DNA of 64,000 nucleotides. It comes from a virus. The stretch covers positions 1-64,000 of the IMG/VR virus record IMGVR_UViG_3300046163_000031; one strand, given 5' to 3'. The stretch's first letter is position 1; every line of letters begins with the position of its first letter. Position numbers and translations under genes: made by a program. Shown one piece after another: positions 11,520 through 61,705 of this stretch. The notes under the pieces were generated by a model. The model was not told the DNA's origin, made no database searches, and saw nothing but the letters and a program-made list of their open reading frames with translations.

Positions 11520-11561
11520 TTATATTTAGTTTATTTATTAATTAAATTAAATTGAATTTTA

Positions 11562-16547: not shown

Positions 16548-16566
16548 GAAACGTAGAAAAAGAAAT

Positions 16567-16950
16567 ATGGACTGGCGACAGAGACGTGCAGAACTAGTAG
16601 ATTTATTCGCTAAAAGAATGTTTATAGAGTATAACATCAAAGAAATGACTACTGAAAGACAAAAGAAAAACGGTACAAGACAATTTGTATTACCTAACGG
16701 TGATCAACTAGCGTCTTATAAATCAGGTTATGTCAGAAGATGTAACTCAAGCGATAGAATATATCAACTAAACAAGGTATTTAAACGCGAAGAAAGATGG
16801 ACAGTCATACAAGATGGTAAGTTAAAATCACTTAAAGCTATGTGTTATGCTAGAGAACTAATAAATGATCCACTTGCAAGACTAATGTATATAGTAGACT
16901 TTTGCAAAAGAAATTATAATATGAGAAATATAACAATGTATTCATTATGA
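16567..16950 (+). CDS. hypothetical basic early protein
   Basis: This 127-residue protein starts MDWRQRRAELVDLFAKRM. A basic core (TERQKKNGTRQFVLPNGDQL) and an Arg/Lys-rich middle suggest nucleic-acid contact, but no fold was recognised. It is preceded by promoter copy 4, and its stop overlaps the start of the next mini-gene (ATGA). Function unknown. Confidence 0.6.
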   Translation: MDWRQRRAELVDLFAKRMFIEYNIKEMTTERQKKNGTRQFVLPNGDQLASYKSGYVRRCNSSDRIYQLNKVFKREERWTVIQDGKLKSLKAMCYARELINDPLARLMYIVDFCKRNYNMRNITMYSL

Positions 16951-19621: not shown

Positions 19622-19900
19622 ATGACAGAAAAACAAATGAATAAATTAGCAGATCTTATTGTAGATAAGATAATTGCTCAACAACAAATTGCAGATGATC
19701 AGTTTAAAGCAGACTTAGAAGATCTAGCTAATTCAAATCCTGATATGATTGTTGGTACTAAATCACAAACCGAATTAGTGTATGAAGAGTTAGATAACTT
19801 AAGAGCAGATCTTAAAATAGCGGAAGAAGCAGAGGATTACGCATATGCCTCAGCCTTGTTAATTAAAATAGAAAAATATAAAAAGAAATATAAACTATAA
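19622..19900 (+). CDS. small coiled-coil protein with UVR-like motif
   Basis: This 92-residue acidic helical protein ends in ELDNLRADLKIAEEAEDYAY, then ASALLIKIEKYKK. The C-terminal 35 residues resemble the UVR domain of UvrB/UvrC, which mediates protein-protein contact. The rest is a polar helix. It follows the sigma factor by 7 nt and is followed directly by a hairpin (19905-19929). Function unknown. Confidence 0.55.
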   Translation: MTEKQMNKLADLIVDKIIAQQQIADDQFKADLEDLANSNPDMIVGTKSQTELVYEELDNLRADLKIAEEAEDYAYASALLIKIEKYKKKYKL

Positions 19901-19904
19901 CTAT

Positions 19905-19929
19905 GCTATACACACTTGCGTGTGTATGT
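19905..19929 (+). repeat. ACACAC-type intercistronic hairpin, copy 1
   Basis: Arms ATACACAC (19908-19915) and GTGTGTAT (19920-19927) enclose a TTGC loop and can be extended with a bulge. A near-identical element is at 23656-23680. Both sit between a gene's stop and the next gene, preceded by AACTATGCT. This may be a processing hairpin, a regulator-binding site or an attenuator. Confidence 0.65.
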
Positions 19930-19947
19930 ATATATTAAGATAAAACT

Positions 19948-23633: not shown

Positions 23634-23655
23634 TATGCGGTAACAAAGTAACTAT

Positions 23656-23680
23656 GCTATACACACCTGCGTGTGTATGC
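23656..23680 (+). repeat. ACACAC-type intercistronic hairpin, copy 2
   Basis: Arms ATACACAC (23659-23666) and GTGTGTAT (23671-23678) flank CTGC, one base different from the TTGC loop of copy 1. The outer GC/GC pair extends the stem with a T bulge. It sits between the SSB-like gene and the primase-helicase. The match to copy 1 includes the upstream AACTATGCT. Confidence 0.65.
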
Positions 23681-23707
23681 ATATAATATTAATTCTAATT
23701 AAATTAA

Positions 23708-33626: not shown

Positions 33627-36600
33627 TTAAAATTCTATTTTATCAAACTTTAATGAATCACCAAAATTTATTGTGTCAAAATTAAGGCCATCACTAGATT
33701 TTTTGTTATTGCCATCTTCTATACCTAAGTTCCATTTACTATAACCAGCTAGCATAGCTAGTCTTTGCCAAGTTTCGTATTGAGTATTCATAGCGTCTTT
33801 TAGGTTTTCTGATTTTATATATAATCTATCTAAAGGTAAATTTATAGCCGCCGAGGTAATAGATGCTCCTGCTTGAAGATAATATTTGTTATCTAAACTC
33901 CAACCTAAATATTCTGCCTCTTGTTTATTGTATTGAATAGATTCCCAGCCTTTCATTAATTTTCTTGCTTTTATACCAACCGGAGGTGAAACGTTTAAAG
34001 CTTCAACAAGTAGTTTTCCACTTTTATATCTACCTTTAGGATCAGCGTTTAATTCTATAGCTTTAGATACAACATTTTTAACTGCTGCAACAAATGCTCC
34101 TTTTAAACCAGAACCTCTAAGAAGAGTATCCATAGCTCCATTTACAGCTCTATACTTACCTGTATCATATTTTCCTTTCTCATCTGCATACTCATCATCA
34201 TCTAGCCACATTCCAAACAACGCATTTTGTAAAAAGTTAAACACCATGTTTTGCAAAGCAGCATAATAAGTTATTTTAGCTATATTATTTCTCCAGTCAC
34301 CTCTTCCTTTTGCTAAATCAACAACTGAATTTTTTATTATTCTTCCATATTGAAGCGGCGTGTTTTGAAAAGCCAAAATTAATCTACCTTGTATTGAGGC
34401 TTGAGTTTGAGATATTTTAGAAGGATCAGCAGATTGTTGACTTATTTCAGCTGCTTCGTAAAATTCTCTCATTGCTTGTGATTCAGCAGCGTCAATTTCT
34501 ACACCTTGTTTAACTAAAGATTTTATTCTATTTCTATAAAAACTAGAACCACCAAGTGCTATTGCAAAACTATCAGCAAATCTAGTAGGCATAAAACCTT
34601 TCTTTAAAACCCAAGCTATAGCAGCTTTTGTTTTACCTGCAAATGTTTTGTTTCTAGGATCATTAACAACATCAATAAGTTCTGCTTCTTGAATATCACT
34701 AAGCATTCCTTCTCTTCTATTTGACAAGTAAGCTGATTTCCAAAGGGTAGTAAAATCACTCCAAAACTGTTTTTGATTAATAAAAGTTTTAGCAGCTGCA
34801 AACACATTGTTATCTGTAGTATTTATAAAGTTAGTTGCAGAGATTGTTTGTAATAAAGCAGATCTCATATTAAAGAACATTGTAACACCAACAGATCCAT
34901 TTAACCAATTAACAAAAGCGCTCTGTTCTTTTGGTTTGTTTTTACCAGTTTGCATTCTTTTTGTAATATCTTTAAGAGCTGTAACAAAATCCGCACCTAA
35001 AGCAGCTTCTAGTTTATATAAGTTTTCTTTATCAAATATTAATTCCTTGTTTTGAATCCATCTTGATAAAAACTTTTCTCTATTAGAAAAATTAAGTATA
35101 TCTTGTATATCACTTAATACATTTCCTGAACTCCAACCTTTACTTGGTTCTATCCAGTTATTTTTCATTTTAGATATTTTTTCAAGATCTAGCGCGAAGC
35201 TTTTTAGTTTTGAGTTTTTTCTAATTATGTTACTTAAAAACATTATATCTTTACTATCTAAACCTGGTATTTCAATTCTATTTCTTTTCCAAAGATAAAC
35301 TCTTAAAGCAGTGTCTAATGAAAAACCACTGTACCCAGAATCTTCTGCTAATAGTTTTTTTATTCCTTTGTTTTTCTTTAATAGGTTTTTAAAATCTCTA
35401 TGTGCAACATTTTTAGCTTCAACCATATTCAACATACCCTCAGAATAAGGTTTTATTAAGTTATCGTTTAACCATTTTAATTGTTTTTCTCCTTTTTTAC
35501 CTTTACCAGAGGCTATCATATACATAAGACCTAAAAAATCTGAATCACCAGGTGGAAGCCACACGTTATTACCCCCAACAAGTTTACCTAAAATTCTACC
35601 TCTTTCTTCAGAAAAAACCTCGTCTACATTTATATTGTAGTTTTCTTCAATTATTTCATTTAACCCTTTTGAAAGGTTATTACTGTATTCGTTTCTTTCG
35701 TTATTTAAACTAAATTTAATATCACCTGTTTCTATAACATTTCTAGACATTTTACCTTTCCAATTAGCGTTGTTTTTAAAGTAAAAATCATTATAACCTT
35801 GAGATATTTTATCTATTAAATAATAAGAAATAGCTTTGTCATTCATGTTACCTAAATCAGGAACATTAAATTTAATAGCTTTTTTATTAAACTTTATAGT
35901 TTTTCTAGTTGCATCATCTATAGTTTCAGCCATAAACAATTGATCATTAACATCAGCTGTAGAAGATAAGTAATCAGATCCTTTAGCGTTATTCAAAGAG
36001 CCGTTATCTAAAGTAAATCTTTCTCTAAATTCTTTGTTAGAGTTTCTTTTTATATCTTTTATAGACTGCTTAAACTGCTTGTTTGTTAAAGTAAATTCAT
36101 CAAAAACAATTCCTTGTTCATTTGCTTCATTAACTTCGTAATTAAATCTTGATCTAAACATGTTAGCTAATCTTCCATACAATCTAGTTCTAGACTTAGC
36201 TTCAGAATCAAAAGTTATATTTTTTATATTAAACTTATTTACAGCTTCTAATAATCCATTAGCTACAATACTCATTACTTTAAAAGAATCACCAGTTCCT
36301 GATATTTCTGTTGATGGTATTGTTCCTGTAATAGTTTCTCCAAACCTATCAAAAGTTACATCTTTCATTAACGCAAATTGAAACTCATAATTGTCTTTTC
36401 CTTTAGGCATTAAGTTAAGTAAATAAGTTTTACCGTTAACAACAAAAGAAGCGTTATACATTTGATCTGAGTTTGGATCTCCAGGTATCATACTACTATC
36501 AGACCATTTTAAATCTGCTTTAGTATTTAAACTAAATTTAACACTAGGTGATTTACCTCTAGCTAAGTTGTTTAAAACTTTGTTTCTTATATTTGTGTTT

Positions 36601-39600
36601 TTAAGATCTCGGTATAAATCAACATTTCTTTTAGATAATTGTTCTAAAAAAGCATCATCTCTTATTGCGTTTCTAGCTTCTTGCAAAACAAGAACATCTC
36701 CAAACAATTCCATCAAAGCTGTTCTTCTGTCAAAATAAGCAGTAGCCCATAGTGTTTTACCTGTTCTACCTTGCTCCACAGGGTCAAAGCTATTTAATAG
36801 TTTTTGCTTATTGTTTTTAGCTAGCTTGTCTATTATTCTAGTGGCTTCATCTAAACCAAAATAGTTTTGTAAAAAACTAGCAACATTTAAGTTTTTAATT
36901 TTTCTAGGTTTTCCCTGATTATCAGAATCTTTAAGTCTTGGTGGTAATTTTTTTATTGCGTAAGTAGACTCACCTGTTACTGGATCAATAGGATTGTTTA
37001 TAACATCAAATATTAATTTCCAATTATCAAACATAAAACTTTCTAATGAAGAAGAATTTTTAAAAGTCATTCTTCTTGTTAGTGTTTGTGATAATATAGC
37101 TAATTTTTCTTTAAAGTTTTTAAAGTCTAGATTTTCAATGTTACGAGAGTTTAATATTTCTCTTTTAACTTCAGCTACTATAATTTTAGCAGGACTAACT
37201 AACTCAGAATAAGCTTCATATGTTTTAACCATTCCGCCAGACCCTAGACTGTATGTTTTAAAAGACTTTAATTCTTTTAATTCTTTAGCTTCAGCGTTTG
37301 TTAAGCTTTGCTTGTTTTCTAGTTCTAAACCTCTTTTTAAATCTCTTTTTTGTCTTTCTAGTTCAGCTCTTTCTTTAGGGTCAGAAACCGTTGCTAGTCT
37401 TCTGTTAACAGCTATACCAGGGTCATTTGCATCTAGAGCAAAATCACCACCAACTGGTATACCTTGTATCTCTATAGGTTTTCCATCTACATCTGTAAAG
37501 CCAAAATTAGGATCTTTAAGCAGTTCAATTAATTGATCTTGATCTTTTTCATAAGATTGTTTTTCCTGCTCTAAAACATCATTATCTACGTCTAAAATAG
37601 ATGCTGTTATTCTGTCATCTATATCAGTTGTGTATTTTTGTGAAGTAACGCTACCTGTTTTAAGCGCTGCTTTCATTTTATTTCTAAGTTGAGAATTTAT
37701 CCAACCATTTAAATTGTCATTTTGAGTTATAAGTTCTCCTTTTTTGTTTTTATAACCTTTTTCGTCTAATTTATTTAAAGTGTTGTTTATTTCATTAGAA
37801 CTTAAGTTATCATCTTGTAACTCTTTTCTTTTGTTTTCTCTAAGATTTAAAAATTCTTTATTAAAATTTCTTATATGAGGTAATAAAGCTATTTGAGTTT
37901 CTTGCAACATGTCTTCAGCACTGTAATCAGGTAGAGATCCGTATAATGTTTGAGCTTTAGAAAGTATTGGTGTTTCATATTGCTCTAATATTTCATAGAA
38001 AACTATATCATCAGGTGCTATGTTTGCCCATTTGTTTTTATTATATTTAGAGTTTATAGTATTTTTAAACTCATCAGCATTAGACCTAGAAGTTGTTTTT
38101 AATGCAAATTTTTCATCAAAAGTATAATTATCTTGACTAACAGGTTCTTTAACCGGCTTTGGTTTTGAAACTTTCTTTTCATCAAGAAGTTCATTAGTTT
38201 CTTTTTTTAAAGCTTTTTTATCTACTTTAGCACCTTTTGTTCCTAATTTTTTAAATGCCTTATTTTTATCTAAAGACATAACTCTATTGTTCATAGATTT
38301 ATTGTAGTCTTTTATAAAATTATAAACATCTCTACCTGAACCAAATTTAACATCTCTAACACCTAGAAATTGTAAAACCTGTCTAAATACATCTGCTAAT
38401 TTAGTAAAAACATCTTCATTATATGTAACAGCGCCAACATCTATAGCTTCAGAATAAAGAGTTAAAACTTCTTCCCACTGTTTACCTAGTTCTGTTGATA
38501 CTTTATTATTATATTCGGACTTTGTTATTGTTCCAGCTTTTAAATCTGCTTCAATTCCAGCAATACTATTTTTATAATAATTTATATAACCAGTAAAGTC
38601 TTTTAAAAACTTAGCAGGCAAAGCGGTTAATTTAGAATCATTAGCAGAAAGTCTTTCTTGTATTTTAAGTATTTCACCTAATAAAGATTTACCTAATAAT
38701 ATAGCGGCTTCAGGATCATTTTTTATTGTCTCATAAATTAAGCCATGTAAAAACTCGTGTTGTTTAACCCCTATTCTTCCACCTTTAGCGGCTTTGTCAT
38801 TGTTTATTAAAACAATTTTTTTACCATCAAAATCTATTATACTTCCGTATTGTTGTGAAGTAAAATCTGCTTTTTCAGGAGTGTAGTTTAATTCGTTTAT
38901 TAAAAAATCTTTAGCTTCTTGAACAGAGTTAACTTCTTTCCATTCAGTATTAGTTATAATACCTTTTTTTATCGCAGCAGTTATTATTCCTGATTTTCTA
39001 GCAGTTAAGTCATTATAATATACTCTTTGTATTTTCTCATCTAAAGCTTTTATTCTTTCGTCTGTAGCTGCATTAAAAGATTTGTCCTCTGTTTTACGTT
39101 GATTTCTTAGTTTACCAACTTCGTTAAGATCACCTAGTATTTCTTCAGCAGCTTGAGCGCTTATGTCGGTAGGCATTCTATTTATGTTGTTATTAAAAGC
39201 CTCTATTTCTTGTAAAACCTGATCTGCTTCTTCTTGAGTATATATACCCTGATTAACTTGATCTGCTAATATTTTTTTAACTTTCTTTTTCTTATAAGAT
39301 AACAAACTTAAGTTGTTAAATCTATCTACAGCACCCATACCTAGTAATTGCCTAGCTGATTTTTTAGCACCTTTTACAGCTACCCCAGCGCCAGGCATTA
39401 TTGCACCAGCAAAAAACGAAAGCACAGTAGTGTCTATAAAATCTTGCATAGACATAGTATCTTTCATTATTTTTTTACCAGCGGATTCATTTACTTGTTT
39501 ATTAACAACAAATGTTTCACCTGACTGCTGTATGTTTTCTTGAAAAACTTCTTTAATACCTTCACCACTTAAATTAAAAAGAGTTTTAGCGCCTGACGCT

Positions 39601-41558
39601 AACTTTTGCCCAAAGCTTCTAAAACCACCTTTAACGTATGCTTCTAAAGATTCTTTTATGTATTCGTTTTTTATTTTACCAAAAATAGCATCCGTTGCTT
39701 TTGTTTGAGGCGATATAGGAGCTGTTAAAGCATATAATATACCTGTTTGTATAGAAGCTATAGAAGCTAATTGACTAGCCTCTTGATCATTTATACCAGC
39801 TTGTCTAGCTTGCTTTAATGTTTCTTCATATCCTCTAGAAAAACCTAAAGTACTTTGACCTATTATAGCATCAGCCATATTTTTTTTAATAGGCACTGAT
39901 TTTAAAAAACTTCTTGTTTTTCCTAAAACACCTAATCCTTTAGTAAAACCACCAACTGCCCTTATACCATTACCCATTCCTCTTGTTAAGGCTATTTGAA
40001 AAAACAAATCACCTATAACGTTAGCACCAGCGTCAAAAGCACCTAGTACACTAAAAGAAGATACTTTTCTATTTCCTTTTCTAGCTTTAGTTCTTATATT
40101 ATCTTGTTGTTCTTGTGTTAAAAAAGGAGTTGCATTTAATTTATTAGTTGTGTCTATTATTTGGTTATTAGAATCTATAACATATTCAATGTTAGTTTCG
40201 GGATCTAAATATCCATAACCTATAGCACTGACGTATCTACCAAAAGTATTGTATTTAGTACCAACAACACCTATTTCTTCTAGAGCTAATTCCGTTCTTA
40301 TACTTTCTGAAACACCTTCAAAAAAGTCACCAGGCAATAAACCATATGCACTTGCGCTAAAACTTTCTATAGCGCCACTCAGCCCGTTCCAACCTTCACC
40401 TGCTAGATTTAATAAAAATTTACCAGCACCAATATTACCGCCATCTTCCAGTAGTTTTTGATACTCTATTTGGTTTTTTTCGTCTTGTTCTTCTAGTTTT
40501 ACAGATATTAATGGAAATTCTTGTTTTATTAAGTTTTCATAATCTTGTAATAAAACATTTTCATTGGAAATATTAAACTTTTTATTTATAGTCTTTGGAT
40601 CAATACCAGTTTGTTTTTCATACATCAACTGTTGTTGCTTTATATCTCTCTGAAGTTGATCGTTAACATATAAGTTTAAGTACTGTAGTTTTTTTGCTTC
40701 AAGAGCTAGTTCTGGTTTATAATAATTACCATAATTTCTCTTATCCATGTCTAACTCTAGAAATCTTTTTAAATCTTTATCATAACCTTTAGCTTGTAAA
40801 AAACCTCCAAAATCTCTAGTGTTTATATTTCTACTTGAAAGAGCATCATTGTCGTACATTTCATCAACAAAAGAAGTTCCTTGACCTAGCATTTCAGCTA
40901 GTTCTGGAGAATACATTTTCATTCCTTCGTTTACCTGCTCGTTTTCAGCAACATATGAGTCTTCATATATATAAGGTTGATTTAATTTTCTTAAATCAAT
41001 GTAACTGTCTATCTCGCTATCACTTTTAGACTGAAAAGCACTTATTTTTCTTCTAGCTCTGTTTTTTTCATCATCACTTACTAGTTGCAATACCGATATA
41101 GCTTCAGGACTTTCTTTATAACCAGCTATAATTAAATCATCTTCAGTTATAAAATTATTATCTACAGCTGCCTGTATGTTGTCATCATCAAAAAAAGGTT
41201 GAGAAGTCACGCTGTCTCCATATCTTTCAGTAGGTAATAAATCTTTTTCATTATACTTACCAAACTGATTCTGTAAAGCGCCTCTAATATTGCTACTTTG
41301 TTGTGTTATACTTTCTGGTAAACCATATAGATCTTCTTGACTACCTGTTGGTGAGTCCAAAGAAATAGTTTCCGAAACTAATTCCGTATCTTCTTGAGGT
41401 GCGAACATGTTGTTCTGAGGCGTTGCATTTGCACCCGCTGCATTGCCCCCAGCTTTTTTTGTAGCTCCAGGATTATTTGATAACCACATTACTATTTGAT
41501 TTTCAGGATATCCAGTAAGATCTACTTCTTCTCCGCTTGGTAAGATATATATTTCCAT
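33627..41558 (-). CDS. 2643-residue giant internal virion protein with HEFLH motif
   Basis: The N terminus (LPSGEEVDLTGYPENQIVMW) resembles a short domain found in large marine-phage virion proteins. HEFLH at about residues 934-938 (38745-38759) is a zinc-peptidase motif, preceded by GRIGVKQ. Near residue 1200 a helical DMLQETQIALLPHIRNFN segment looks like a sigma-type region 2. Long coiled-coil and polar stretches follow. The C terminus (NLPLDRLYIKSENL, then QRLAMLAGYSKW) resembles other giant injected proteins. The size and position among internal-virion genes suggest a DNA-injection protein. Function is inferred. Confidence 0.75.
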   Translation of the reverse strand: MEIYILPSGEEVDLTGYPENQIVMWLSNNPGATKKAGGNAAGANATPQNNMFAPQEDTELVSETISLDSPTGSQEDLYGLPESITQQSSNIRGALQNQFGKYNEKDLLPTERYGDSVTSQPFFDDDNIQAAVDNNFITEDDLIIAGYKESPEAISVLQLVSDDEKNRARRKISAFQSKSDSEIDSYIDLRKLNQPYIYEDSYVAENEQVNEGMKMYSPELAEMLGQGTSFVDEMYDNDALSSRNINTRDFGGFLQAKGYDKDLKRFLELDMDKRNYGNYYKPELALEAKKLQYLNLYVNDQLQRDIKQQQLMYEKQTGIDPKTINKKFNISNENVLLQDYENLIKQEFPLISVKLEEQDEKNQIEYQKLLEDGGNIGAGKFLLNLAGEGWNGLSGAIESFSASAYGLLPGDFFEGVSESIRTELALEEIGVVGTKYNTFGRYVSAIGYGYLDPETNIEYVIDSNNQIIDTTNKLNATPFLTQEQQDNIRTKARKGNRKVSSFSVLGAFDAGANVIGDLFFQIALTRGMGNGIRAVGGFTKGLGVLGKTRSFLKSVPIKKNMADAIIGQSTLGFSRGYEETLKQARQAGINDQEASQLASIASIQTGILYALTAPISPQTKATDAIFGKIKNEYIKESLEAYVKGGFRSFGQKLASGAKTLFNLSGEGIKEVFQENIQQSGETFVVNKQVNESAGKKIMKDTMSMQDFIDTTVLSFFAGAIMPGAGVAVKGAKKSARQLLGMGAVDRFNNLSLLSYKKKKVKKILADQVNQGIYTQEEADQVLQEIEAFNNNINRMPTDISAQAAEEILGDLNEVGKLRNQRKTEDKSFNAATDERIKALDEKIQRVYYNDLTARKSGIITAAIKKGIITNTEWKEVNSVQEAKDFLINELNYTPEKADFTSQQYGSIIDFDGKKIVLINNDKAAKGGRIGVKQHEFLHGLIYETIKNDPEAAILLGKSLLGEILKIQERLSANDSKLTALPAKFLKDFTGYINYYKNSIAGIEADLKAGTITKSEYNNKVSTELGKQWEEVLTLYSEAIDVGAVTYNEDVFTKLADVFRQVLQFLGVRDVKFGSGRDVYNFIKDYNKSMNNRVMSLDKNKAFKKLGTKGAKVDKKALKKETNELLDEKKVSKPKPVKEPVSQDNYTFDEKFALKTTSRSNADEFKNTINSKYNKNKWANIAPDDIVFYEILEQYETPILSKAQTLYGSLPDYSAEDMLQETQIALLPHIRNFNKEFLNLRENKRKELQDDNLSSNEINNTLNKLDEKGYKNKKGELITQNDNLNGWINSQLRNKMKAALKTGSVTSQKYTTDIDDRITASILDVDNDVLEQEKQSYEKDQDQLIELLKDPNFGFTDVDGKPIEIQGIPVGGDFALDANDPGIAVNRRLATVSDPKERAELERQKRDLKRGLELENKQSLTNAEAKELKELKSFKTYSLGSGGMVKTYEAYSELVSPAKIIVAEVKREILNSRNIENLDFKNFKEKLAILSQTLTRRMTFKNSSSLESFMFDNWKLIFDVINNPIDPVTGESTYAIKKLPPRLKDSDNQGKPRKIKNLNVASFLQNYFGLDEATRIIDKLAKNNKQKLLNSFDPVEQGRTGKTLWATAYFDRRTALMELFGDVLVLQEARNAIRDDAFLEQLSKRNVDLYRDLKNTNIRNKVLNNLARGKSPSVKFSLNTKADLKWSDSSMIPGDPNSDQMYNASFVVNGKTYLLNLMPKGKDNYEFQFALMKDVTFDRFGETITGTIPSTEISGTGDSFKVMSIVANGLLEAVNKFNIKNITFDSEAKSRTRLYGRLANMFRSRFNYEVNEANEQGIVFDEFTLTNKQFKQSIKDIKRNSNKEFRERFTLDNGSLNNAKGSDYLSSTADVNDQLFMAETIDDATRKTIKFNKKAIKFNVPDLGNMNDKAISYYLIDKISQGYNDFYFKNNANWKGKMSRNVIETGDIKFSLNNERNEYSNNLSKGLNEIIEENYNINVDEVFSEERGRILGKLVGGNNVWLPPGDSDFLGLMYMIASGKGKKGEKQLKWLNDNLIKPYSEGMLNMVEAKNVAHRDFKNLLKKNKGIKKLLAEDSGYSGFSLDTALRVYLWKRNRIEIPGLDSKDIMFLSNIIRKNSKLKSFALDLEKISKMKNNWIEPSKGWSSGNVLSDIQDILNFSNREKFLSRWIQNKELIFDKENLYKLEAALGADFVTALKDITKRMQTGKNKPKEQSAFVNWLNGSVGVTMFFNMRSALLQTISATNFINTTDNNVFAAAKTFINQKQFWSDFTTLWKSAYLSNRREGMLSDIQEAELIDVVNDPRNKTFAGKTKAAIAWVLKKGFMPTRFADSFAIALGGSSFYRNRIKSLVKQGVEIDAAESQAMREFYEAAEISQQSADPSKISQTQASIQGRLILAFQNTPLQYGRIIKNSVVDLAKGRGDWRNNIAKITYYAALQNMVFNFLQNALFGMWLDDDEYADEKGKYDTGKYRAVNGAMDTLLRGSGLKGAFVAAVKNVVSKAIELNADPKGRYKSGKLLVEALNVSPPVGIKARKLMKGWESIQYNKQEAEYLGWSLDNKYYLQAGASITSAAINLPLDRLYIKSENLKDAMNTQYETWQRLAMLAGYSKWNLGIEDGNNKKSSDGLNFDTINFGDSLKFDKIEF

Positions 41559-44432: not shown

Positions 44433-45710
44433 TTAATATGATGATTCTTTAAATTCTGTAGATATTGCAAACAATTCATTGTTTCCATTATCTTTAGTAT
44501 TTGTTGCTGTAAATTTAACCTCAGCAGTGTATCCTTTTATTCCAGATATAGAAGCGCCATAAACAACTTCACCAGAACTATCTGCGCTTGTGTTAACTAA
44601 ATTAGCAAAGTATTTATCTTCTTTCTTTTTAAATTCATTACTAAACAATGAGTTTTCAAGATCAGCTAGTGTTAAAGGCATTGTATATGCGTTTATAAAT
44701 CTAGCAGTGTCTCCAGAGTCTGTAGATATAGAGGTCATTGCCCAGTTTATACCTCCCTCATAATTTATAGTTTTAAAACTTTTAATAGCAGATGGCTGTT
44801 TGTTAAATATACTAGTAACAGTTGAATCATATGTATTACCATAAAAAGTTGCTCTAAGCACCGATTCATTATAATGTATATATATCCCACCAGAATTAGT
44901 AGAATAAAAATTACTTTGAAGGCTTATTAAGTTATAAGGAACATAACTATATCTACTAGTCCAACCTTGAGTTTGTTCATCAAAACTAAGTGTCTCAGGT
45001 GTAACGCTTAATGTCTTATCTTTTAAAGAAATAGTATAACACTTGTTGTGAATATCCCAACCACCAATAGCTAAAGGATCAGGTAGTGTATTAAATTTAT
45101 CTCTAAAAAAATCATACATACCATAGCTTGATATTTCTGTTATACCATCTTGAGACAGTCTTAAAACAGCTCCTTGATTAGCATCAGTAAAATATTTTCT
45201 ATATCCATATACAGCAAAGCTTTCAGGATTTTTGCTTATACCCCACTCCCCAGCGTAAGGAACTATAGCGCCTATAACAACATTTGATGTTGTCTGCATA
45301 GGTACTCCTTCTTGAGTATAAACAGCATCTTTATCTATTAAAGCTCTATTTACTTTGTTTTCTTGAAATATTATTAAATTAGTATCTTCAGCGTAAAGCT
45401 TTTGTATAGTACCTTTTGTTGGATCTACAGATCTTGTTATGTCTTCACCTGAAGGAAACTGATTAGACTGATTTACGCCAGTTCTAGAGTTTAATATACC
45501 TGAATATATAATAGAGTTTCCTAAAGACTGCTGAGAACTATCATCAGATCTTAAAAATGCTCTAGGAGATAAACCCGTTTGCACGTTGTTATAACCACCT
45601 CTTATTCTAGCTTCTTCTACAAACCAATTGTAAGAAGCTGAAATAGGTCCTTGAACTAATTTCTTAAGAACGTATGTGTTATAGTATTTTACCGGGGTTA
45701 CAATTGCCAT
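44433..45710 (-). CDS. tail tubular/nozzle-like protein
   Basis: This 425-residue protein begins MAIVTPVKYYNTYVLKKLVQ and is beta-rich, with repeated aromatic strands (TISLKDKTLSV, GWTSRYSYVPYN and similar) as in tail-tube or nozzle proteins. It directly follows the large tail protein and precedes the GNAT. The tail position is supported by gene order; the specific part is inferred. Confidence 0.65.
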   Translation of the reverse strand: MAIVTPVKYYNTYVLKKLVQGPISASYNWFVEEARIRGGYNNVQTGLSPRAFLRSDDSSQQSLGNSIIYSGILNSRTGVNQSNQFPSGEDITRSVDPTKGTIQKLYAEDTNLIIFQENKVNRALIDKDAVYTQEGVPMQTTSNVVIGAIVPYAGEWGISKNPESFAVYGYRKYFTDANQGAVLRLSQDGITEISSYGMYDFFRDKFNTLPDPLAIGGWDIHNKCYTISLKDKTLSVTPETLSFDEQTQGWTSRYSYVPYNLISLQSNFYSTNSGGIYIHYNESVLRATFYGNTYDSTVTSIFNKQPSAIKSFKTINYEGGINWAMTSISTDSGDTARFINAYTMPLTLADLENSLFSNEFKKKEDKYFANLVNTSADSSGEVVYGASISGIKGYTAEVKFTATNTKDNGNNELFAISTEFKESSY

Positions 45711-48700: not shown

Positions 48701-50912
48701 CATTAAAAGTATTAGCTGCATTAGTTGCGTCGGCATATAATATTATTGTATCAAAATTAACTTGTGCTAAAGTTGCAATAATACACTGTGTTCCTATGCT
48801 ATTAAAATAAGGATATAATGCACTAGGCGCACTTCCTGTTTTAATATCAACTGTATAATAATTTCCTTTTGCATAAGCACCTGGATAACCAGCAACGCCA
48901 TTAGCGTTTACGTCTTCAGGTATTTGTTGTAAATAATATAAAGCTAAATTATCACCTTTCCAAGGTTGAACATCATTACTGAAACTAGCTGCTTTATAAT
49001 CATAAAAATAATTAGAACCAGGCTGAGGATCTCCATTAGCGTCTAATAATCCATCATAGTTAGATAGTATTATATCTGTTTGTCTACCATATTTATCTGC
49101 TAATATAACACCAACTTGATAGTTTCTGTTTTGTTTTACGGAATGTTGAGGATATTCAACAAATTGTTGTGCGCTTTTTTCAGTAACATCTACGTAGTAA
49201 TCTAAACCAACAGGTGCACTATAACCTTCTAAGTAATTAGAATACATTATTCTATTGCCTGATGTTTCTTGAGCTAATGCTCTAACAGGTACTTTATCAT
49301 AAACTCTTACTGATTGAGAAGCAGGTAGCGTTCTAATAGCATGCCTAGATTCGTAAGAATATTGATATATATTTGTATATTTTAAATTAGTTATAAAATT
49401 AGCATCAACTTTTATAGTTTCTATAACTTGATAAGCCTGCATATCAGACTGTTTAAATATTATATCTAAAGATTTTATTTTATATTTATTAATTATATCT
49501 ACACAAGGTAATTCTATATTCAACACAGCATTGTTTATAGAGTTTTGCATAAACTCTACAACAGTAGTTATAAACGCTAGATTTTCATCATCATTAACAA
49601 ATTGACCATCTTGGTATGGTATAAAAACATCTTGACTAAAAGGTGAAACAACAGAATACTCGTTGTCATCAAATTTAAATCTATATGCAAACTTGACAAA
49701 TTTATCTTTAATATAATCAGGATCACCTGTCCAACCAGTATAACCAGCATCTTTTATAACTCTTACAGAGTAACCATCTATTGTATTTCCATTTGTTTCA
49801 ACGGTAACATTGTTGCCAGAAGGTGGAACTCTAAAATACGAATTGCTACTAGTGTCAGATGCCCAAAACCTAGCTTCAGTTGTTAAGTTTGTAAAACCTA
49901 AAGCTGTACTAATAGTTGAATTTCTATATCCACCTGGTAATGCGCTAAATCCATTTAAATCATTTCCAGGGTTATCCCATAAAAATTGACTTTTATATGG
50001 TGAAGATAAAGTACCAGCAATACCAATTATTTGACTATATTCAGTAGCTGTTGGTATTCTATGACCAATTGGTGCTAAACCCCTAGCGTCAAGAACAGCC
50101 CATTTATTATATAATAAACCATACGTAACTCCATTACCATTGTAGTTAGCGTAGTAACACCATCTACCTTCTTGATTTGTATCAGCATCAGCCCAAGCTG
50201 TTTGTGATGTAGCCTCTGGTATAGCGTCACCGTTCTTATATCTTTTTACAGCTAGATTAGAACTACTTATAGAATATATACCTAATTCAACCACAGCTGG
50301 ATCAGCCGCATCAGACATTGTAGAGGGTAATAACACATCTATAAAAGGTGGCGCTTGCTCTGAAGCGTTAGCCCTTAAATTTAAAAATTCAGGTGGATTA
50401 AGCGGAGCATATTTAGCAACAGATATTTGATCTTCGTTAAAATAATAACCCAGCGGTTGGTCTACATTTATTTTTCTTGGTTGATTTCTATTATCAGTAA
50501 AGAATAATTGGTTTTCAATTAAACTAATACCTTCCATTCTACTTCCAGAGCAAAAATTTAAAAAACTACCTGATACTAAAACGTTGTTAGTGTTTGTTCT
50601 AGTTTGAAGAAAACCAATAGTACAAGTTGCGGTTAAAGGAGCTTTTATAGCGCAGTTAGTATGGTTTGTTCTAAAATAATAAAGTCTATTATTAGACTCA
50701 TCAGCATAGGTTCCTATAATACTAAAACCAGTTGTTTCTCCAACAGCTGTAATATTATTACCTAATATAGATTCAACAGCGCCAACATCACTAGATTCTG
50801 ATCTAGAAACAGCTATGTTTAAAGCGTCTCTATACTCGTTATTTGGAATTAATCTTTCATCTAAGTCTTTATTCATTTTAGACTTAATGAAATTATTTTT
50901 AGCTTCTGCCAT
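45747..50912 (-). CDS. large tail (stabilisation/nozzle) protein with FISUMP insertion
   Basis: The 1721-residue protein starts with NNFIKSKMNKDLDERLIPNN, a motif known in podovirus tail stabilisation proteins. Residues about 222-389 look inserted: WCYYANYNGNGVTYGLLYNK, then LAPIGHRIPTATEYSQI, GFSALPGGYRNS and a Trp-containing ending. This matches the FISUMP domain (Fibrobacter succinogenes major paralogous domain), common in Bacteroidota surface proteins. The stabilisation pattern resumes afterwards (DKFVKFAYRFKFDDNEYS). The C-terminal half is beta-rich and could be receptor-facing. The domain call is by memory. Confidence 0.8.
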   Translation of the reverse strand: MAEAKNNFIKSKMNKDLDERLIPNNEYRDALNIAVSRSESSDVGAVESILGNNITAVGETTGFSIIGTYADESNNRLYYFRTNHTNCAIKAPLTATCTIGFLQTRTNTNNVLVSGSFLNFCSGSRMEGISLIENQLFFTDNRNQPRKINVDQPLGYYFNEDQISVAKYAPLNPPEFLNLRANASEQAPPFIDVLLPSTMSDAADPAVVELGIYSISSSNLAVKRYKNGDAIPEATSQTAWADADTNQEGRWCYYANYNGNGVTYGLLYNKWAVLDARGLAPIGHRIPTATEYSQIIGIAGTLSSPYKSQFLWDNPGNDLNGFSALPGGYRNSTISTALGFTNLTTEARFWASDTSSNSYFRVPPSGNNVTVETNGNTIDGYSVRVIKDAGYTGWTGDPDYIKDKFVKFAYRFKFDDNEYSVVSPFSQDVFIPYQDGQFVNDDENLAFITTVVEFMQNSINNAVLNIELPCVDIINKYKIKSLDIIFKQSDMQAYQVIETIKVDANFITNLKYTNIYQYSYESRHAIRTLPASQSVRVYDKVPVRALAQETSGNRIMYSNYLEGYSAPVGLDYYVDVTEKSAQQFVEYPQHSVKQNRNYQVGVILADKYGRQTDIILSNYDGLLDANGDPQPGSNYFYDYKAASFSNDVQPWKGDNLALYYLQQIPEDVNANGVAGYPGAYAKGNYYTVDIKTGSAPSALYPYFNSIGTQCIIATLAQVNFDTIILYADATNAANTFNVLIDNGNGWVLQSPSSYTISQDGQYTDVDFYPTLTGETTNVTGNPSTSYSIINLTPSSDEPSIGSTVTGTGIATGTTVTSYDSSTGIVTFNLSSNLSNGVTLSFNSGVTLNSTVKFEVLYTAANLYKYTTGTASSTNRPLFPTWPTEYATYYAVGKKLRGLYIDYTEITSVTPISDSGGVRAVEFFTQEEVATNYLFDDTPNTRPEPSIFGQEKTFVTYDINVNGFYGYKFATKQQQQDYYNVYLPGIINGYPIKGETKEQGDTAYSTLITDNINKIPRNLEDVGPLQNQFTSDVSLFGRVTNINTIEDASGVYKTGNRQFDPVPSADQVDLVGTVSDLFPGLIATSTPQPGDVNPEAIYNYNTKPVLFQVSTQKAIGLTEDQYTLPVLGNGNFPYPEDMYLAVYETAPYVSPLEIFYESSTSELVSDLNESLVNENTNITGISSFTSNFPESAQVGTIITTDFFPTAGGVNVVTASLSSYTVYNYFDQLPDTGTLDTTVLQNSKFNIEAGSSVGSFRIVTADRFYAGSSAEVGFFVDWRGKYQFNLTFVQEDGITSTQTLEIDLENVAPVIDRINVNATVVNYDVDIVQPSTSTSTTQQSNKGRNGSAKAYSLGDTTSLTGSTFELTPPNGNAWEVDKITITDLTTAGTTVIPDNGELISDYIQVAAGTQKSVTQQLVIPNTDWLTFVLKGALNSTGGQSNGPMNTANKGYLINLRLTDTLGLTNTSATISYNVGASLFFGQVIATPYLSGIDATGRVTNGNGSDVSNNTLQNPSQGGAPRWTGQIQNWTSNTVYLYVQVTIGSASQQTGQAQAINVRGVYGDGSTTFTDDTGASYGLNLDGAVQSVVISNGTQGNSSTLNQFAMLSPFTASSAGVSQTDFDDAVTAGMRPGGKASNYGLPDCSGSAMIGGGVKLTTQGGSYANNVYAAIIASTSPQSAGNATILANSFGIVYEGPISPPWYEPSGSNDPSINPTITPVPVTT

Positions 50913-54385: not shown

Positions 54386-55825
54386 TTATAATCCTTTGAA
54401 CAATACAAAGTTGTTAGCAGCTTGTACAACTAAACATCTTTCAGATAGGAAGTTAACTTCCATAGCATCAAGATCAGATGTAAATGCACCACCAGCAGAA
54501 CCAGTTAACCAAGACTTCATACGTCTGTCATCTCCTTGAGATGCTCTGTAACGCACGTGTAAGAATGGTCTTCTAATGTTTGTTCCTAAGATTTGATCAT
54601 AAACTGTAGAAGTTCCAGCAGGAATTAATACACCTTCAATAGAAGAAGGTCCTACCATAGCACCTCTTGTAGAAGCATCATTTAGGTATTTCCAATCAGT
54701 CTTATAAAAGTCGTAAGATCCTCTACGGAATCCGCTAAACCCTAAGTTTAAAGCCATTTCTTCAGAATTTTCAAATAGTCCAAAAGCAGTACCTCCAGCG
54801 TATCCACCAGAAATAGAAGCTAACATATCATCAAAATCCAAAGCTGTTTGTCTTTGTAAGAATAACATGTTTTCTTCAATTGCTCCTTGAGTATCTAAAT
54901 TTTTCAAAATAGCATCAAATGCATCAATTCCAGCAGCAGCAGTAAATCCTGTTTGCACATTACCTCTTGCAGTAACAGCAGCAAAAAGACCTTGCGTACC
55001 ATTTGCAGCAGCAATTGCTCCAGATCCAGCAGCAGCGATCTCACCTTCTACTAATGACATTTCTAAGTAATCTTCGAAACGTAATCTAGTTTCAGACTCA
55101 GCTTTTAAATACCATAAGTATCCAGAAGTTCCGTCTTCAGTAGCAACTTCAACCCAACCGATTTGTGCCATATCAGATCCATTTACAACGTATTTGTTTC
55201 TGATAATGATAGGTGAGTTAGAAAATTGAGTAAATTGTGGGTCAACACTGATATAACCAGTTGGTTGAGTAGCAGCATTAAAGTTTGGAGTACTAGATCC
55301 TTTTGCATATTCAGAACCGTATACAAATACTTTAACTTGACCTACTAATCCAGCAGCAGCAATTGTAGCAGCCGTGTAAGGTAAAGCAGTAATTGATCCG
55401 ACACCAGCAGCGCCTGGAGTAGAAGCACTAACGTAGCACTTTACTTCAGCTCCAAAGTCGTCCATTACCACAACAGTAGCTCCAACTGATATAACATTTG
55501 TTACGCTAGCAGGAGTTCCTATCCAGTTAATAACATTAGCACCAGCTAAAGTAAGATTGTCATAAGCAATGTGTAATCTATTTTGTTCAGACCAAATTAC
55601 TTGATCAGAAGTCATTGGCATTTCAGCGCCAACCATTCTTAAAAAGCCAGATAACGTTCTGTTTCCATAACGCTCTACTTCTTGTTCGTATACTTCAGGT
55701 AGATATTGTTGTGCAAAATCTACGAAGTTAGCACCTGCAGCATCGTTCCATTGTAGGTAGTTGCTGTTTAATACTTCCTGTGCTTGAGATGGGACTAAAT
55801 TCCCAAATTGAGGTTGTAAACTCAT
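54386..55825 (-). CDS. major capsid protein
   Basis: This 479-residue protein lies between scaffold and capsid-accessory genes. It begins MSLQPQFGNLVPSQAQEVLN and has large Ala/Gly-rich beta segments, a helix rich in NYLQWNDAAGANFVDF, and an ending of NFVVLFKGL type. The gene order portal-scaffold-capsid and a strong terminator-like hairpin after it make the call firm. The sequence does not show the HK97 motif set clearly by eye. Confidence 0.8.
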   Translation of the reverse strand: MSLQPQFGNLVPSQAQEVLNSNYLQWNDAAGANFVDFAQQYLPEVYEQEVERYGNRTLSGFLRMVGAEMPMTSDQVIWSEQNRLHIAYDNLTLAGANVINWIGTPASVTNVISVGATVVVMDDFGAEVKCYVSASTPGAAGVGSITALPYTAATIAAAGLVGQVKVFVYGSEYAKGSSTPNFNAATQPTGYISVDPQFTQFSNSPIIIRNKYVVNGSDMAQIGWVEVATEDGTSGYLWYLKAESETRLRFEDYLEMSLVEGEIAAAGSGAIAAANGTQGLFAAVTARGNVQTGFTAAAGIDAFDAILKNLDTQGAIEENMLFLQRQTALDFDDMLASISGGYAGGTAFGLFENSEEMALNLGFSGFRRGSYDFYKTDWKYLNDASTRGAMVGPSSIEGVLIPAGTSTVYDQILGTNIRRPFLHVRYRASQGDDRRMKSWLTGSAGGAFTSDLDAMEVNFLSERCLVVQAANNFVLFKGL

Positions 55826-57073: not shown

Positions 57074-59488
57074 TTATCTAGGATCAAACTGTTCTAATCC
57101 AAACCCTCCCAGTCCATCAAATCCTGCTGATTCAAAACTTTGAGGTAAAGTGTTGTTTTGTCTTTGGTTTATTAACTCAGACTCTTGTGTTCCTTGTTTT
57201 TCTATTCGATTATCTTTTCTATCTTCTATTTCTTGTTCTTTTTGTGTTTCTGCTTGTGCTTTTATTTGAGCTAATTTCATATTATAGCTAAATTCTTCAG
57301 CCATAAGCTCTTTTTTAACTTTAGCCTCTTGAAGCATTTTATTTATTTCAAACTGTATTTTTGCTTGCTCAATTTGTATTGTTGTTTCAGCTAAAGCCTG
57401 TTGCTTTTGCATTTCAGCTTCTATAGCTTGTTGAGCTGCTTGTGAGTTTGCCTGCGCTTGAGCCTGTATGTTCGCTTGTTGATTAGCCTGATCTCTCGCA
57501 GCTTTCTTTTTACGACTTTGTTTTAATAAAGCGTTTGCTAATTTTATATTTTTAACTTGACGAATATCAATAGCATCATCTAAATCAATACCACCAGATG
57601 CTAATGCGGTTTGAATATTTTGCTCTAATTGAGCTTTCATTTCATCGTCTGGTTCTAATTCTAAATATATACCAAAGTCTTGTAATGTTTTTTCCTGTAA
57701 TTCCTCTAAAGTACCAGTGTTATAAGATGATATAGAGTCTATTAATGCAGCTCTAGTTAAAGGATAATCTAAGGCATCTGCTATTCTCAACGCTATGTTT
57801 TCGCATGTTCTTAATGTTAGGTATAAACCACCTTGCATTACATGTCTTAACGCTGTATTTGAGTTTGCAGCTGCCATTTTTTGTAAACCAACTAAAGCAT
57901 GTGCGTCAGGAGTACTAGCGTCAGTAGCTTCGTTTAACCCGGTTACATCTCTAATCATTTGTAAGTAATACTGATAAGTTTGTATTAAAGATCCTATTTT
58001 AGCATTACCAGAAGAAGTTTGAAGTTCTTGAATAGGAACTTTACCTCTATTTAAATCACCATCTTGTGTCATGGATCTACCTACTATACTACCAGTTTGA
58101 AAATACATGTTAAGTGCTTCCTGCGCATTATAGTTTGTGCCATTACCTAAATCAACTTCAGCTAAACCATCTACGTCAACAAAAACACCATCAGGAACCA
58201 TTCTAGATAAAACTTGTTGTAGTTTTAAATGTGTTAATTGGATCATATCAGCAAAACCAGTTATTCTACTAACTGTTGATTCTATCATGCCCTTATACAT
58301 TCTAGGAGCACATATAGAGTAATTCATGTTAACTTTTGTTACGTTAGAATTTGGCCTTGTCATATTTTCTGACATCTTCCACTCTAACATCATCTCATGA
58401 CCTAATATTTTAGCGCCAGTATATAAAACCTCTATAGCTCTTCCAACTCTTTCAAAGTTATCACTTTCAGGCGGATTAAACGTATCGGGTTTTTCTAATG
58501 CTTTTTCTAATCCTTGATCTGTTTGTTTTATTTTAAATACTTGATTAGTATATGTTTTGTATTCAAAATATAAAACTTGAACTTGATTATAAGAATCTTG
58601 TTGTGCATAGAAGTTTCTAGTATAATTTGCATCACCAGGAAACTTTTCTATTTGTTTTAATTCATCATTTGTTAAACCAGGAAACTGTTTTTTTAATTCT
58701 ACTAAACTAATAGATTTTACTTCTCCAGCATAATATATGTCTTCAAAGTTTGGATCTTCTGTATATGAATAAACTAAATTAGCAGGATCTACATAATTTA
58801 ATGTAACACCATTTGATAAGTTAAAATCTGTTTTTACAGCACCTATACCTATTATAGTTAAATCAGATATTAATCTTCTTTTTATTAATTCATATTTATT
58901 AGCCGCTAAAACATTTTCTATAGCTTCTTCTTCTGCAATTTCTATAGATTGTTTGTAAGACAATTGCATGTGAAGATCTAATTCGTCTTGAGATTCAGGT
59001 ATGTTATTAGGATCGTTGCTATTAAAAAAATCCATACCAGTAGCTTCATTTGTAGCTTGAATTATTTCTTTAGCATACATATCTTTCATTATAGCATCAG
59101 CATACTTTGTTCTTTGTTTTAAAGACTCAGGATCTTGCGCGTAAGCTTTTATATCAAAAATTTTTTGAGACATACCGTTTACTATTATATCTACAAATTT
59201 AGGTATAATAGGAACTGGTTTCCAGTCTAAATTTAAATAAGATAAATCACCATTAATAGATAATTCATCTTTATATTTTTGAACAGATTGTTCACCTCTA
59301 GCGTATAATCTTAGTCTATGAAAATTTAACCAACTATTTTGGTATCTATTTCCCATGCCACCTCTGTCTCCAGAAAACCATTCGCCTTCTATTGCGCGAC
59401 CTACGGCGTAACCGTATTCGTAACCTTGCTTCTCTTCGTCTGATACTACTTGACTTGGAAATGAACCTACGTAATTAGTATATGTCAT
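57074..59488 (-). CDS. portal protein
   Basis: This 804-residue protein has portal-like organisation. The N-terminal part is rich in helices and conserved aromatic residues (WFSGDRGGMGNRYQNSWLNF), the central part has IIVNGMSQKIFD, and the C terminus has a Gln-rich coiled coil (QQANIQAQAQANSQAAQQAI). It sits directly after the large terminase, as portal genes do. It forms the dodecameric ring through which DNA enters the capsid. The family is inferred from position and architecture. Confidence 0.8.
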   Translation of the reverse strand: MTYTNYVGSFPSQVVSDEEKQGYEYGYAVGRAIEGEWFSGDRGGMGNRYQNSWLNFHRLRLYARGEQSVQKYKDELSINGDLSYLNLDWKPVPIIPKFVDIIVNGMSQKIFDIKAYAQDPESLKQRTKYADAIMKDMYAKEIIQATNEATGMDFFNSNDPNNIPESQDELDLHMQLSYKQSIEIAEEEAIENVLAANKYELIKRRLISDLTIIGIGAVKTDFNLSNGVTLNYVDPANLVYSYTEDPNFEDIYYAGEVKSISLVELKKQFPGLTNDELKQIEKFPGDANYTRNFYAQQDSYNQVQVLYFEYKTYTNQVFKIKQTDQGLEKALEKPDTFNPPESDNFERVGRAIEVLYTGAKILGHEMMLEWKMSENMTRPNSNVTKVNMNYSICAPRMYKGMIESTVSRITGFADMIQLTHLKLQQVLSRMVPDGVFVDVDGLAEVDLGNGTNYNAQEALNMYFQTGSIVGRSMTQDGDLNRGKVPIQELQTSSGNAKIGSLIQTYQYYLQMIRDVTGLNEATDASTPDAHALVGLQKMAAANSNTALRHVMQGGLYLTLRTCENIALRIADALDYPLTRAALIDSISSYNTGTLEELQEKTLQDFGIYLELEPDDEMKAQLEQNIQTALASGGIDLDDAIDIRQVKNIKLANALLKQSRKKKAARDQANQQANIQAQAQANSQAAQQAIEAEMQKQQALAETTIQIEQAKIQFEINKMLQEAKVKKELMAEEFSYNMKLAQIKAQAETQKEQEIEDRKDNRIEKQGTQESELINQRQNNTLPQSFESAGFDGLGGFGLEQFDPR

Positions 59489-61705
59489 TTATTGTATTAT
59501 TTGTGAACTATATCCTTCGTTATTATATTTTTTAAAACCTAATGGTTTTACTTCTAATTTTCTTTTAAAAACAGGATTATATTTGTTTTTATTACAAGCC
59601 ATTACTGCTAACCCAGAACTAATAGAGGCATCATGTTTTGTTCTATTATTAATATCAAACCTAGCCCAATCATTTAGTGTTCTTTGAAAGTACATATTTC
59701 CATAAGATTCACCTAAATTACCAACATGTGTTTCTATGTATGACTCTATAGCGGCAGCGTGTGCTTGTTTTATATCTTCGCTTGAATTAGGTATTCCACC
59801 TATTTCTCTTTCTGTAACAGACAATTTAGCAATAGATTTATCTGGTCTATTCATTGAATACCCTCTATAACCTCTACGTTTAAAATAATAAAGCAGTCTA
59901 GGTTTATTGTTTTCGGCTAATATTGGCATACCATAAAATATACATGCCATAAGCACATCTTCAAAAAACATTTCTGCCGTCTGTGGTCTAGCTATATATT
60001 CTAAAAAAAACATATTAGGTGGTGCGTTTTCCATAGAAAACTTAGTTAAACCGTGTAGTGAACCATTTGATCCACGAGAATCAACAGTACCTGATATATC
60101 ATAACTATCACAACCAAAAGCACCCATGTGATCGTTTGCTGGGTACTTTAATCCATTTTTCATTATTAAACGGTTCTGAAGATTTAACTCAGGTACCCAA
60201 GAAATTTTAAATCTACCATTTTCATTTGGTACAAATAAAACGCCATTTGGATTATCTTTTACACCACCGTGCCAATTAAAAGAACCTGTTGTTATTAACG
60301 ATTCACTTTTGCAGTCTTCATTAAAATCAACTTGTTCATATATTTTTGTTAAATTAAATATTGATTGTTTTGCTTCGTCTCTAAAAGCGTGTTGTTCAGT
60401 TCTTGGAAATTGTCTATAAAATTCATTTAAACCGTCTTGATCTTTTTTTAAACCATTAACTTCATTTTGCCAATATTCAATTACTCCTATTTTTATCTCT
60501 TGCCCGTGAGGTCCAAAGGTTTTTTTATTTGGAGTTTCGAAGACAGGTAATCCATGAGAATCAATGTATCCTTCGTAGTTCCATTCCATAGGTATGAACA
60601 AAGAATAGAGTCCTGAGCGAGTCTGTCCATTGGCGTTTCTTTCTTTAATATCTGAATCATAGTATAATTTTTTAAAATTATCACCACCTTTATCTAAAGC
60701 GTTTGATGTTGAACCCATCATACATTTACCTATTATCTTACTACCTAATCTAAGTGTTGTTTTTGTAACGCGCCAATTATTTAATATATTGTTTGGTCTT
60801 TCCCATTTACCCGATTCATCATGAACGAGGAGTTTGAGCTTTTCACCATCGTAGGAGTTATCACCGGTGTTTTTCCAGTCGATTGTGGTATCCAAACCGG
60901 TAATTTCTTTAAGGGTTTGATTGGCGTCAAGTTTTCTACGGGTAAACTTGGATGCTGGTACTCTGTAGGCAAGTTCGGTTTTTGGACGGTCCATACCGTC
61001 TTGGATCGGTTTAAAGAAAAATGGATAGTTAACGGATATTGGTACAACCTTATCTGTGAACATCTTTTTAGCATCGGGGCCAGATTTGGACAAAATCCCA
61101 AACCGTGAATCCGTTGAAATGGTCGCCATGTTGACGGTTTCGCCAGAGGCCATGAATGAAAATCCGGAACGCCTGTTTTTGAGATAGCACATACCATAAC
61201 ACCTGTAGTCTGCCCTGCAAGCTTCCCAGAAAATATAGAATAATCTATTTGATTCCCTAAAGTCTGGTTGCCCAACATCAATTTTGGACCACTGCAAGTA
61301 CATATAGTGAGTACCAGTAATGTAAGTAGCCACGTTTTTATTATAGAACCAAAAGCCTTGTTCTCTTCTATTAAATTCTTTATCAATGTAATCATACCAT
61401 TCTTCTTTAAATTCTATTGGATATTCTTCCCAATCAAAAACAGATTTGATTTTTTTTAATTGCTTAGGATACTCTGTGTGACTCCATTTATTTTCTTTAA
61501 ACTCTACTATATCATTTTGTTTAGGTAAAGCTATTTTTAAGTTTTGTATTTCATATACATCGCCTATCTCACCCGTTTTGCTTATAATTATAACATCATG
61601 TTCTTCATTATAACCATATTCCCATTTTTTATACCTATTGTTTCTTTTTAAAACTTTAGGTTTAATATGGTTTTTTAATATTTTATATAAACTTTGCTCG
61701 TACAT
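59489..61705 (-). CDS. terL: terminase large subunit
   Basis: This 738-residue protein has an ATPase domain with a Walker A-like KNRRSGFSF (176-184) and a Walker B LVHDE (293-297), followed by a nuclease domain with Asp-rich FGCDSYDIS. The N-terminal extension before the ATPase is long (about 170 residues). TerL packages phage DNA and cleaves it. It starts at the last base of the upstream small gene. The degenerate Walker A (R for G) is common in some terminases. Confidence 0.85.
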   Translation of the reverse strand: MYEQSLYKILKNHIKPKVLKRNNRYKKWEYGYNEEHDVIIISKTGEIGDVYEIQNLKIALPKQNDIVEFKENKWSHTEYPKQLKKIKSVFDWEEYPIEFKEEWYDYIDKEFNRREQGFWFYNKNVATYITGTHYMYLQWSKIDVGQPDFRESNRLFYIFWEACRADYRCYGMCYLKNRRSGFSFMASGETVNMATISTDSRFGILSKSGPDAKKMFTDKVVPISVNYPFFFKPIQDGMDRPKTELAYRVPASKFTRRKLDANQTLKEITGLDTTIDWKNTGDNSYDGEKLKLLVHDESGKWERPNNILNNWRVTKTTLRLGSKIIGKCMMGSTSNALDKGGDNFKKLYYDSDIKERNANGQTRSGLYSLFIPMEWNYEGYIDSHGLPVFETPNKKTFGPHGQEIKIGVIEYWQNEVNGLKKDQDGLNEFYRQFPRTEQHAFRDEAKQSIFNLTKIYEQVDFNEDCKSESLITTGSFNWHGGVKDNPNGVLFVPNENGRFKISWVPELNLQNRLIMKNGLKYPANDHMGAFGCDSYDISGTVDSRGSNGSLHGLTKFSMENAPPNMFFLEYIARPQTAEMFFEDVLMACIFYGMPILAENNKPRLLYYFKRRGYRGYSMNRPDKSIAKLSVTEREIGGIPNSSEDIKQAHAAAIESYIETHVGNLGESYGNMYFQRTLNDWARFDINNRTKHDASISSGLAVMACNKNKYNPVFKRKLEVKPLGFKKYNNEGYSSQIIQ

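Follow-up and report, generated by a model that had tools for sequence, protein, structure and literature searches.

A FISUMP domain in a variable slot of the crassvirus-type muzzle protein of a marine phage lineage

How does a domain family that is abundant in bacteria come to lie within a phage tail protein, and what might it do there? The question arises from a DNA stretch of 64,000 nucleotides, the window of this study (positions 1 to 64,000 of the IMG/VR virus record IMGVR_UViG_3300046163_000031). An earlier note had placed a FISUMP-like domain at 49746-50249, inserted in a tail stabilisation-type protein whose phage sequence resumes afterwards. It read the insertion as a captured module, possibly for adhesion or receptor binding, took it as support for a Bacteroidota host, and proposed a Pfam PF09603 search and a comparison with insertion-lacking relatives as checks. 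The phage is a marine tailed podovirus related to Cellulophaga phages and crAss-like phages. Table 1 lists the features concerned.

Table 1 Position of the muzzle chains, the FISUMP domain with its borders, and neighbouring virion and packaging genes in the window
Feature	Position	Strand	Basis
Muzzle protein, C-terminal chain, 425 aa, separate ORF	44433..45710	(-)	PF25729 crAss_MUZ_C 42.1 bits, cut-off 27; phrog_14478 positions 945-1258
Muzzle protein, N-terminal chain, 1721 aa	45747..50912	(-)	phrog_14478; hhalign to ΦcrAss001 gp44
Right border motif of slot, YTGWTGDPDYIKDKF, aa 391-405	49698..49742	(-)	Alignments; NPYYxxxxxGDPxFxxDKF in FISUMP-lacking relatives
FISUMP / Fib_succ_major domain PF09603, aa 218-387	49752..50261	(-)	Pfam; own-record search; AlphaFold2 model
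C-terminal strand-loop segment of the domain, aa about 341-379 (L016 residues 351-391)	49776..49892	(-)	L016/L017 exchange; differences between window and L002
Left border motif of slot, PSTMSDAADP, aa 196-205	50298..50327	(-)	Alignments; ETTMxDxxSxxLP in FISUMP-lacking relatives
Virion structural protein at the major-capsid place in gene order	54386..55825	(-)	phrog_13704 E=2.5e-90; capsid role inferred from gene order
Portal protein	57074..59488	(-)	phrog_6547 E=1.5e-138
Terminase large subunit	59489..61705	(-)	phrog_6681 E=5.9e-162

The FISUMP domain and its muzzle protein

PF09603 matches the 1721-aa ORF with 71.5 bits (E=1.4e-19) over profile positions 11-187 of 187, which is about twice the curated gathering cut-off of 33.9 bits. 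A six-frame search of the whole 65.6-kb virus record returned the domain at the same place with 75.8 bits and revealed no second FISUMP copy. The domain is real, and its earlier limits were off by at most 12 bases. The insertion was also described correctly: phrog_14478 (virion structural protein) matches aa 5-177 in front of the domain (E=5e-47), and directly behind it the muzzle sequence resumes with the block DKFVKFAYRFKFDDNEYS, which is common to muzzle proteins without the domain. Five other contigs (L001-L005) encode the 1721-aa protein with 97-100% identity. Relatives of the domain in bacteria, mostly Bacteroidota and Chlorobiota, share 33-46% identity with it, and its core residues are strongly conserved.

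An AlphaFold2 model of the domain reached a pLDDT of 87.4 and a pTM of 0.86. Comparison of this model with the PDB by Foldseek gave no match below E=0.001; the second-ranked entry (E=1.1) was 4eps, a fimbrial protein of Bacteroides ovatus which is treated beside DUF1566 in the retroelement literature (PMC4159848). A comparison of the domain sequence with solved structures gave no credible match. Because the PDB search returned nothing significant, the putative C-type-lectin-like fold is deduced from published work on FISUMP/DUF1566 targets. Other phage FISUMP proteins exist. Two BFVD entries from uncultured Caudovirales phages, both named FISUMP, match the domain model, A0A6J5LVS1 with a TM score of 0.78 by query length (E=4e-14) and A0A6J5N676 with 0.57 (E=9e-5).

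The surrounding protein is indeed a tail protein but is better named a muzzle protein of the crassvirus type. By sequence comparison, the 1721-aa ORF is identified as the N-terminal chain of such a tail-tip protein, since phrog_14478 matches this ORF as well as the next one, crAss_MUZ_C is found next door, PF25731 (crAss_MUZ) scores above its cut-off in the FISUMP-lacking relatives L069 and L070, and a profile of FISUMP-lacking short-slot relatives aligns with residues 8-178 of gp44 of ΦcrAss001 (hhalign: probability 92%, E=5.7e-7). This alignment ends where the slot for the domain begins. On the window's own 1721-aa protein, the Pfam search gave no match to PF25731. A model of the N-terminal 660 aa was poor (pTM 0.36); its Foldseek hits were mostly beta-propellers, none of them below E=0.001. 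Upstream of the muzzle, the portal and terminase genes match phage families with E < 1e-130.

The muzzle of ΦcrAss001 is a hexamer located at the end of the tail (PMC10172136). Its protein gp44 (PDB 7qok, 7qol, 8ckb; PMC10172136) resembles the protein of the window in its N-terminal homology and in a detectable C-terminal muzzle domain. However, gp44 is one chain of 1371 aa without an insert in the slot, whereas the muzzle of the window consists of two chains, with FISUMP placed early in the first immunoglobulin-like region (IG1). Of the environmental relatives, 115 have a recognisable C-terminal part, and in all of them it is a separate ORF; 5 of the 6 reference phages tested have a single fused gene. 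The propeller of a muzzle encoded by two ORFs would be closed by two chains.

Several other elements were observed in the window. A phage-encoded GroEL-type chaperonin is located at 4497-6053 (PF00118, E=1e-58; phrog_5725) and the large subunit of a ribonucleotide reductase at 30110-31828. The ORF at 6486-11519 (1677 aa) contains many diverged internal repeats, has no Pfam or PHROG match and possibly encodes a fibre-like protein. An ORF of 2643 aa (33627-41558) shows only sub-threshold matches, to DUF6934 and to a sigma-factor-like PHROG. A near-identical 40-nt repeat between ORFs (19898-19937 and 23649-23688), whose core ACACACTTGCGTGTGT is partly palindromic, is possibly a regulatory element.

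Slot, distribution and history of the domain

Alignment with relatives showed that FISUMP takes the place of a short linker between PSTMSDAADP and YTGWTGDPDYIKDKF. The slot corresponds to about residue 177 of ΦcrAss001 gp44, in the first part of IG1; this region (residues 163-292) interrupts the propeller between blades 2 and 3 and lies below it (PMC10172136). Behind the slot, the match to gp44 comes from MAFFT only, and the exact IG1 strand at the insertion point is one that we infer from these alignments. At 80 outgroup marine loci the slot is 37-316 aa long and does not contain FISUMP; 21 of these slots are short, and the longer inserts form about 20 sequence classes, a number that varies with the clustering threshold. 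The muzzle-type proteins of Cellulophaga phage phi38:1, the Flavobacterium elemo phages, Maribacter phage Panino and Tenacibaculum phage Gundel_1 are colinear with that of the window, with about 29-33% identity over conserved blocks where listed. Unlike the window, these reference phages (L073-L075, L077-L079) have a slot of only 8-11 aa and no FISUMP; ΦcrAss001 has no insert. When 59 inserts of relatives without FISUMP were compared with Pfam, no credible domain emerged. The slot is an insertion hot spot of the muzzle. Length variation has been described in the crass and IG2 regions, not in IG1 (PMC10172136). In three relatives (L065, L066, L067), a Gly-rich repeat of about 70 aa of the GSGY type is nested within the muzzle FISUMP domain, and the slot insert of L070 has a GSGY motif resembling it.

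A scan with the muzzle protein, which had one FISUMP peptide among its patterns, returned 72 loci. FISUMP occupies the same slot at 68 of them, while the other four (L069-L072) have different inserts of 200-242 aa. On account of that peptide, a FISUMP-blind scan was added, for which the flank downstream of the domain was taken from basal members of the clade. It yielded 81 ORFs with the flank: 76 carry FISUMP, four (L396-L399) belong to the outgroup type, and the remaining one (L393) is a frame-broken fragment with the slot outside the ORF. The domain is thereby present in 76 of 76 clade members with an intact slot. It is absent from all 80 outgroup marine muzzles, collected by a second FISUMP-blind scan aimed at this group, and from all 7 cultured or complete reference phages. 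Insertion-lacking relatives therefore exist, as the earlier note had supposed, but within the clade the domain belongs to every intact member. The presence in all homologues that would have spoken against the note thus holds for the clade and fails for the wider marine homologues and the references. A scan with the domain itself placed 80 of 80 listed viral matches in muzzle proteins at the same slot, in a ranking that favours close relatives.

Two trees describe the history of the domain. Both were built by a quick method and have one support test each, and the bacterial copies were selected by their similarity to the phage profile. In the tree of the muzzle flanks (112 rows), the FISUMP state requires one change, and the FISUMP clade comprises 39 rows with a support of 99. 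In the domain tree, which includes 79 copies from bacteria, those from phages lie together on one side of a single branch with a support of 98. Distances of domain and flanks are correlated (Mantel r 0.70 and 0.75, p=0.001), which fits vertical inheritance after a single acquisition in the ancestor of the lineage. Repeated swapping of the whole domain between lineages is not supported in view of this correlation, and a recent capture by this phage alone is ruled out by both trees together with the 76 of 76 clade members. The domain can be called captured, as proposed before, but its capture goes back to the ancestor of a whole marine lineage, in which it is now a fixed, ordinary part of the protein. 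The transfer probably went from bacteria to phage, as the domain is abundant in bacteria and absent from other muzzles.

The host is likely to be a member of the Bacteroidota, mainly since Flavobacteriia are the hosts of the nearest cultured relatives. The domain, which the earlier note had taken as support for this host, was fixed long ago and is therefore weak evidence. The contig L080 (CALKFR010000081.1), whose domain is 98% identical and has the same muzzle surroundings, is filed in a Flavobacteriaceae metagenome-assembled genome, which is a weak hint in the same direction.

Variation within the domain

The column entropy of the domain peaks at aa 358-377. One clear case of allele exchange was found between L016 and L017, which are near-identical over most of 22 kb save for discrete islands that include the C-terminal part of FISUMP and the distal muzzle. 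Within residues 1-720, all 10 amino-acid differences fall into L016 residues 351-391. Over about 155 nt the two differ by 20 SNPs, compared to 3 in the preceding 430 nt and none after. The allele of L017 was found again in L060, which stems from a different metagenome. Since the synonymous differences cluster in the same segment, the pattern points to a recombination tract rather than to selection on point mutations or to adenine mutagenesis. Further islands of divergence between the two contigs, at L016 positions 9901-12900, 16501-16800 and from 20101, lie in the distal muzzle, at one spot of a 574-aa ORF and in part of the long ORF that follows.

A weaker form of this pattern was seen between the window and L002, where 3 of 9 amino-acid changes in aa 1-720 fall into the segment (aa 367-376). 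Most other close pairs show no unusual nucleotide divergence in the domain, and the sharp exchange was seen in one lineage only. Values of pN/pS were computed for 21 pairs. In all 17 pairs that gave a comparison, not all of them independent of one another, the domain exceeds the C flank. With values of 0.07-0.32, the domain is under purifying, not positive, selection.

Possible role at the tail tip

As the best explanation as a whole we regard, with a probability of about 0.6, a surface-binding, C-type-lectin-like module on the muzzle tail tip. In this scenario, the muzzle has a slot close to where IG1 begins, bounded by a TMxD and a GDPxF-xDKFV motif, and the ancestor of the lineage gained a bacterial-type FISUMP domain there once, which its descendants keep. 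By analogy with the hexameric crassvirus muzzle, the domain would be displayed six-fold on the tail tip, and it could bind a surface molecule of the host (glycan or protein), probably of a flavobacterium, when the tip nears the cell. The C-terminal strand-loop segment is the positional counterpart of the segment varied in retroelement-targeted FISUMP/DUF1566 proteins, but is re-assorted by ordinary recombination. Host binding is plausible from the location, the family and the variation pattern of the domain, and to this extent the adhesion or receptor-binding module of the earlier note holds. Against the binding reading count the Foldseek search of the PDB, which gave no significant match, the poor model of the N-terminus, the restriction of the sharp exchange to one lineage, the purifying selection on the domain and its divergence, which is not raised in most near-identical pairs. 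In addition, a likely role in cell contact was assigned to the distal crass domain and not to IG1 (PMC10172136).

Alternatively, the domain might stabilise or space the muzzle hexamer or brace neighbouring tail fibres without binding the host. Its presence in all members of the clade whose slot is intact, the overall purifying selection and the strongly conserved core residues are consistent with such a structural insert. However, in relatives the slot is filled by unrelated inserts of all lengths or is nearly empty, so that assembly in general needs no particular insert, and the variation is concentrated in the C-terminal loop segment. We consider a purely structural role unlikely.

Slightly less probable again is a general adhesin which tethers virions to polysaccharide-rich particles or capsules and increases encounters without being the site of receptor recognition. 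Some FISUMP-bearing bacterial relatives have N-termini which, judged by eye, resemble secretion or lipoprotein signals, and recognition could be left to the separate tail fibres of crassviruses. The analyses used here, though, do not tell such an adhesin apart from receptor binding.

FISUMP/DUF1566 domains are known in Bacteroides phages as retroelement targets of the C-type lectin class (PMC8143477; PMC4159848), with the variable repeat at the C-terminal end, and the variable segment described here lies in the matching place. It might thus be a variable repeat rewritten by reverse transcription. The targets in the Bacuni phages of Bacteroides uniformis (PMC8143477) likewise have a FISUMP-type domain in a host-recognition setting which varies near its C-terminal end, but they are separate proteins diversified by a retroelement, whereas the domain of the window is part of the muzzle. 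The differences found here are of all base types, about half of them synonymous, without adenine bias. RVT_1 was found neither in the own record nor in 15 related records of 31-68 kb, and no template repeat matching the segment was found elsewhere in the window. The absence of a retroelement from these 16 records is strong but not absolute evidence, because some of them are fragments. Taken together, the missing RVT_1, the missing repeat and the mixed-base differences make this hypothesis very improbable for these records. A chimera of bacterial and phage sequence made in assembly or annotation, conceivable for a metagenomic virus record, has a negligible probability and is ruled out by the same in-frame architecture in dozens of independent contigs, including L001-L005.

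Beyond the putative surface-binding module in this one lineage, the start of IG1 in environmental crassvirus-like muzzles may be a general cassette site for host-contact modules. It would hold a different small domain in each lineage, FISUMP being one of them, with recombinational allele exchange doing the job of the retroelements in Bacteroides phages. This extension is tentative, and we put it at somewhat less than even odds. A literature search revealed no direct report of FISUMP in crAss-like phages; new here are where the domain lies, a slot near IG1 that varies between relatives, and recombination instead of a retroelement.

In crAss-like phages, muzzle proteins act as the gatekeepers of the tail tip. 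The slot is a concrete candidate for a contact site, because whole modules differ between lineages and a short segment was exchanged within a near-identical pair, and with a domain size of about 20 kDa this candidate is testable. A bacterial domain family has in this way turned into a fixed part of the tail tip in an uncultured marine phage lineage that is found in many metagenomes.
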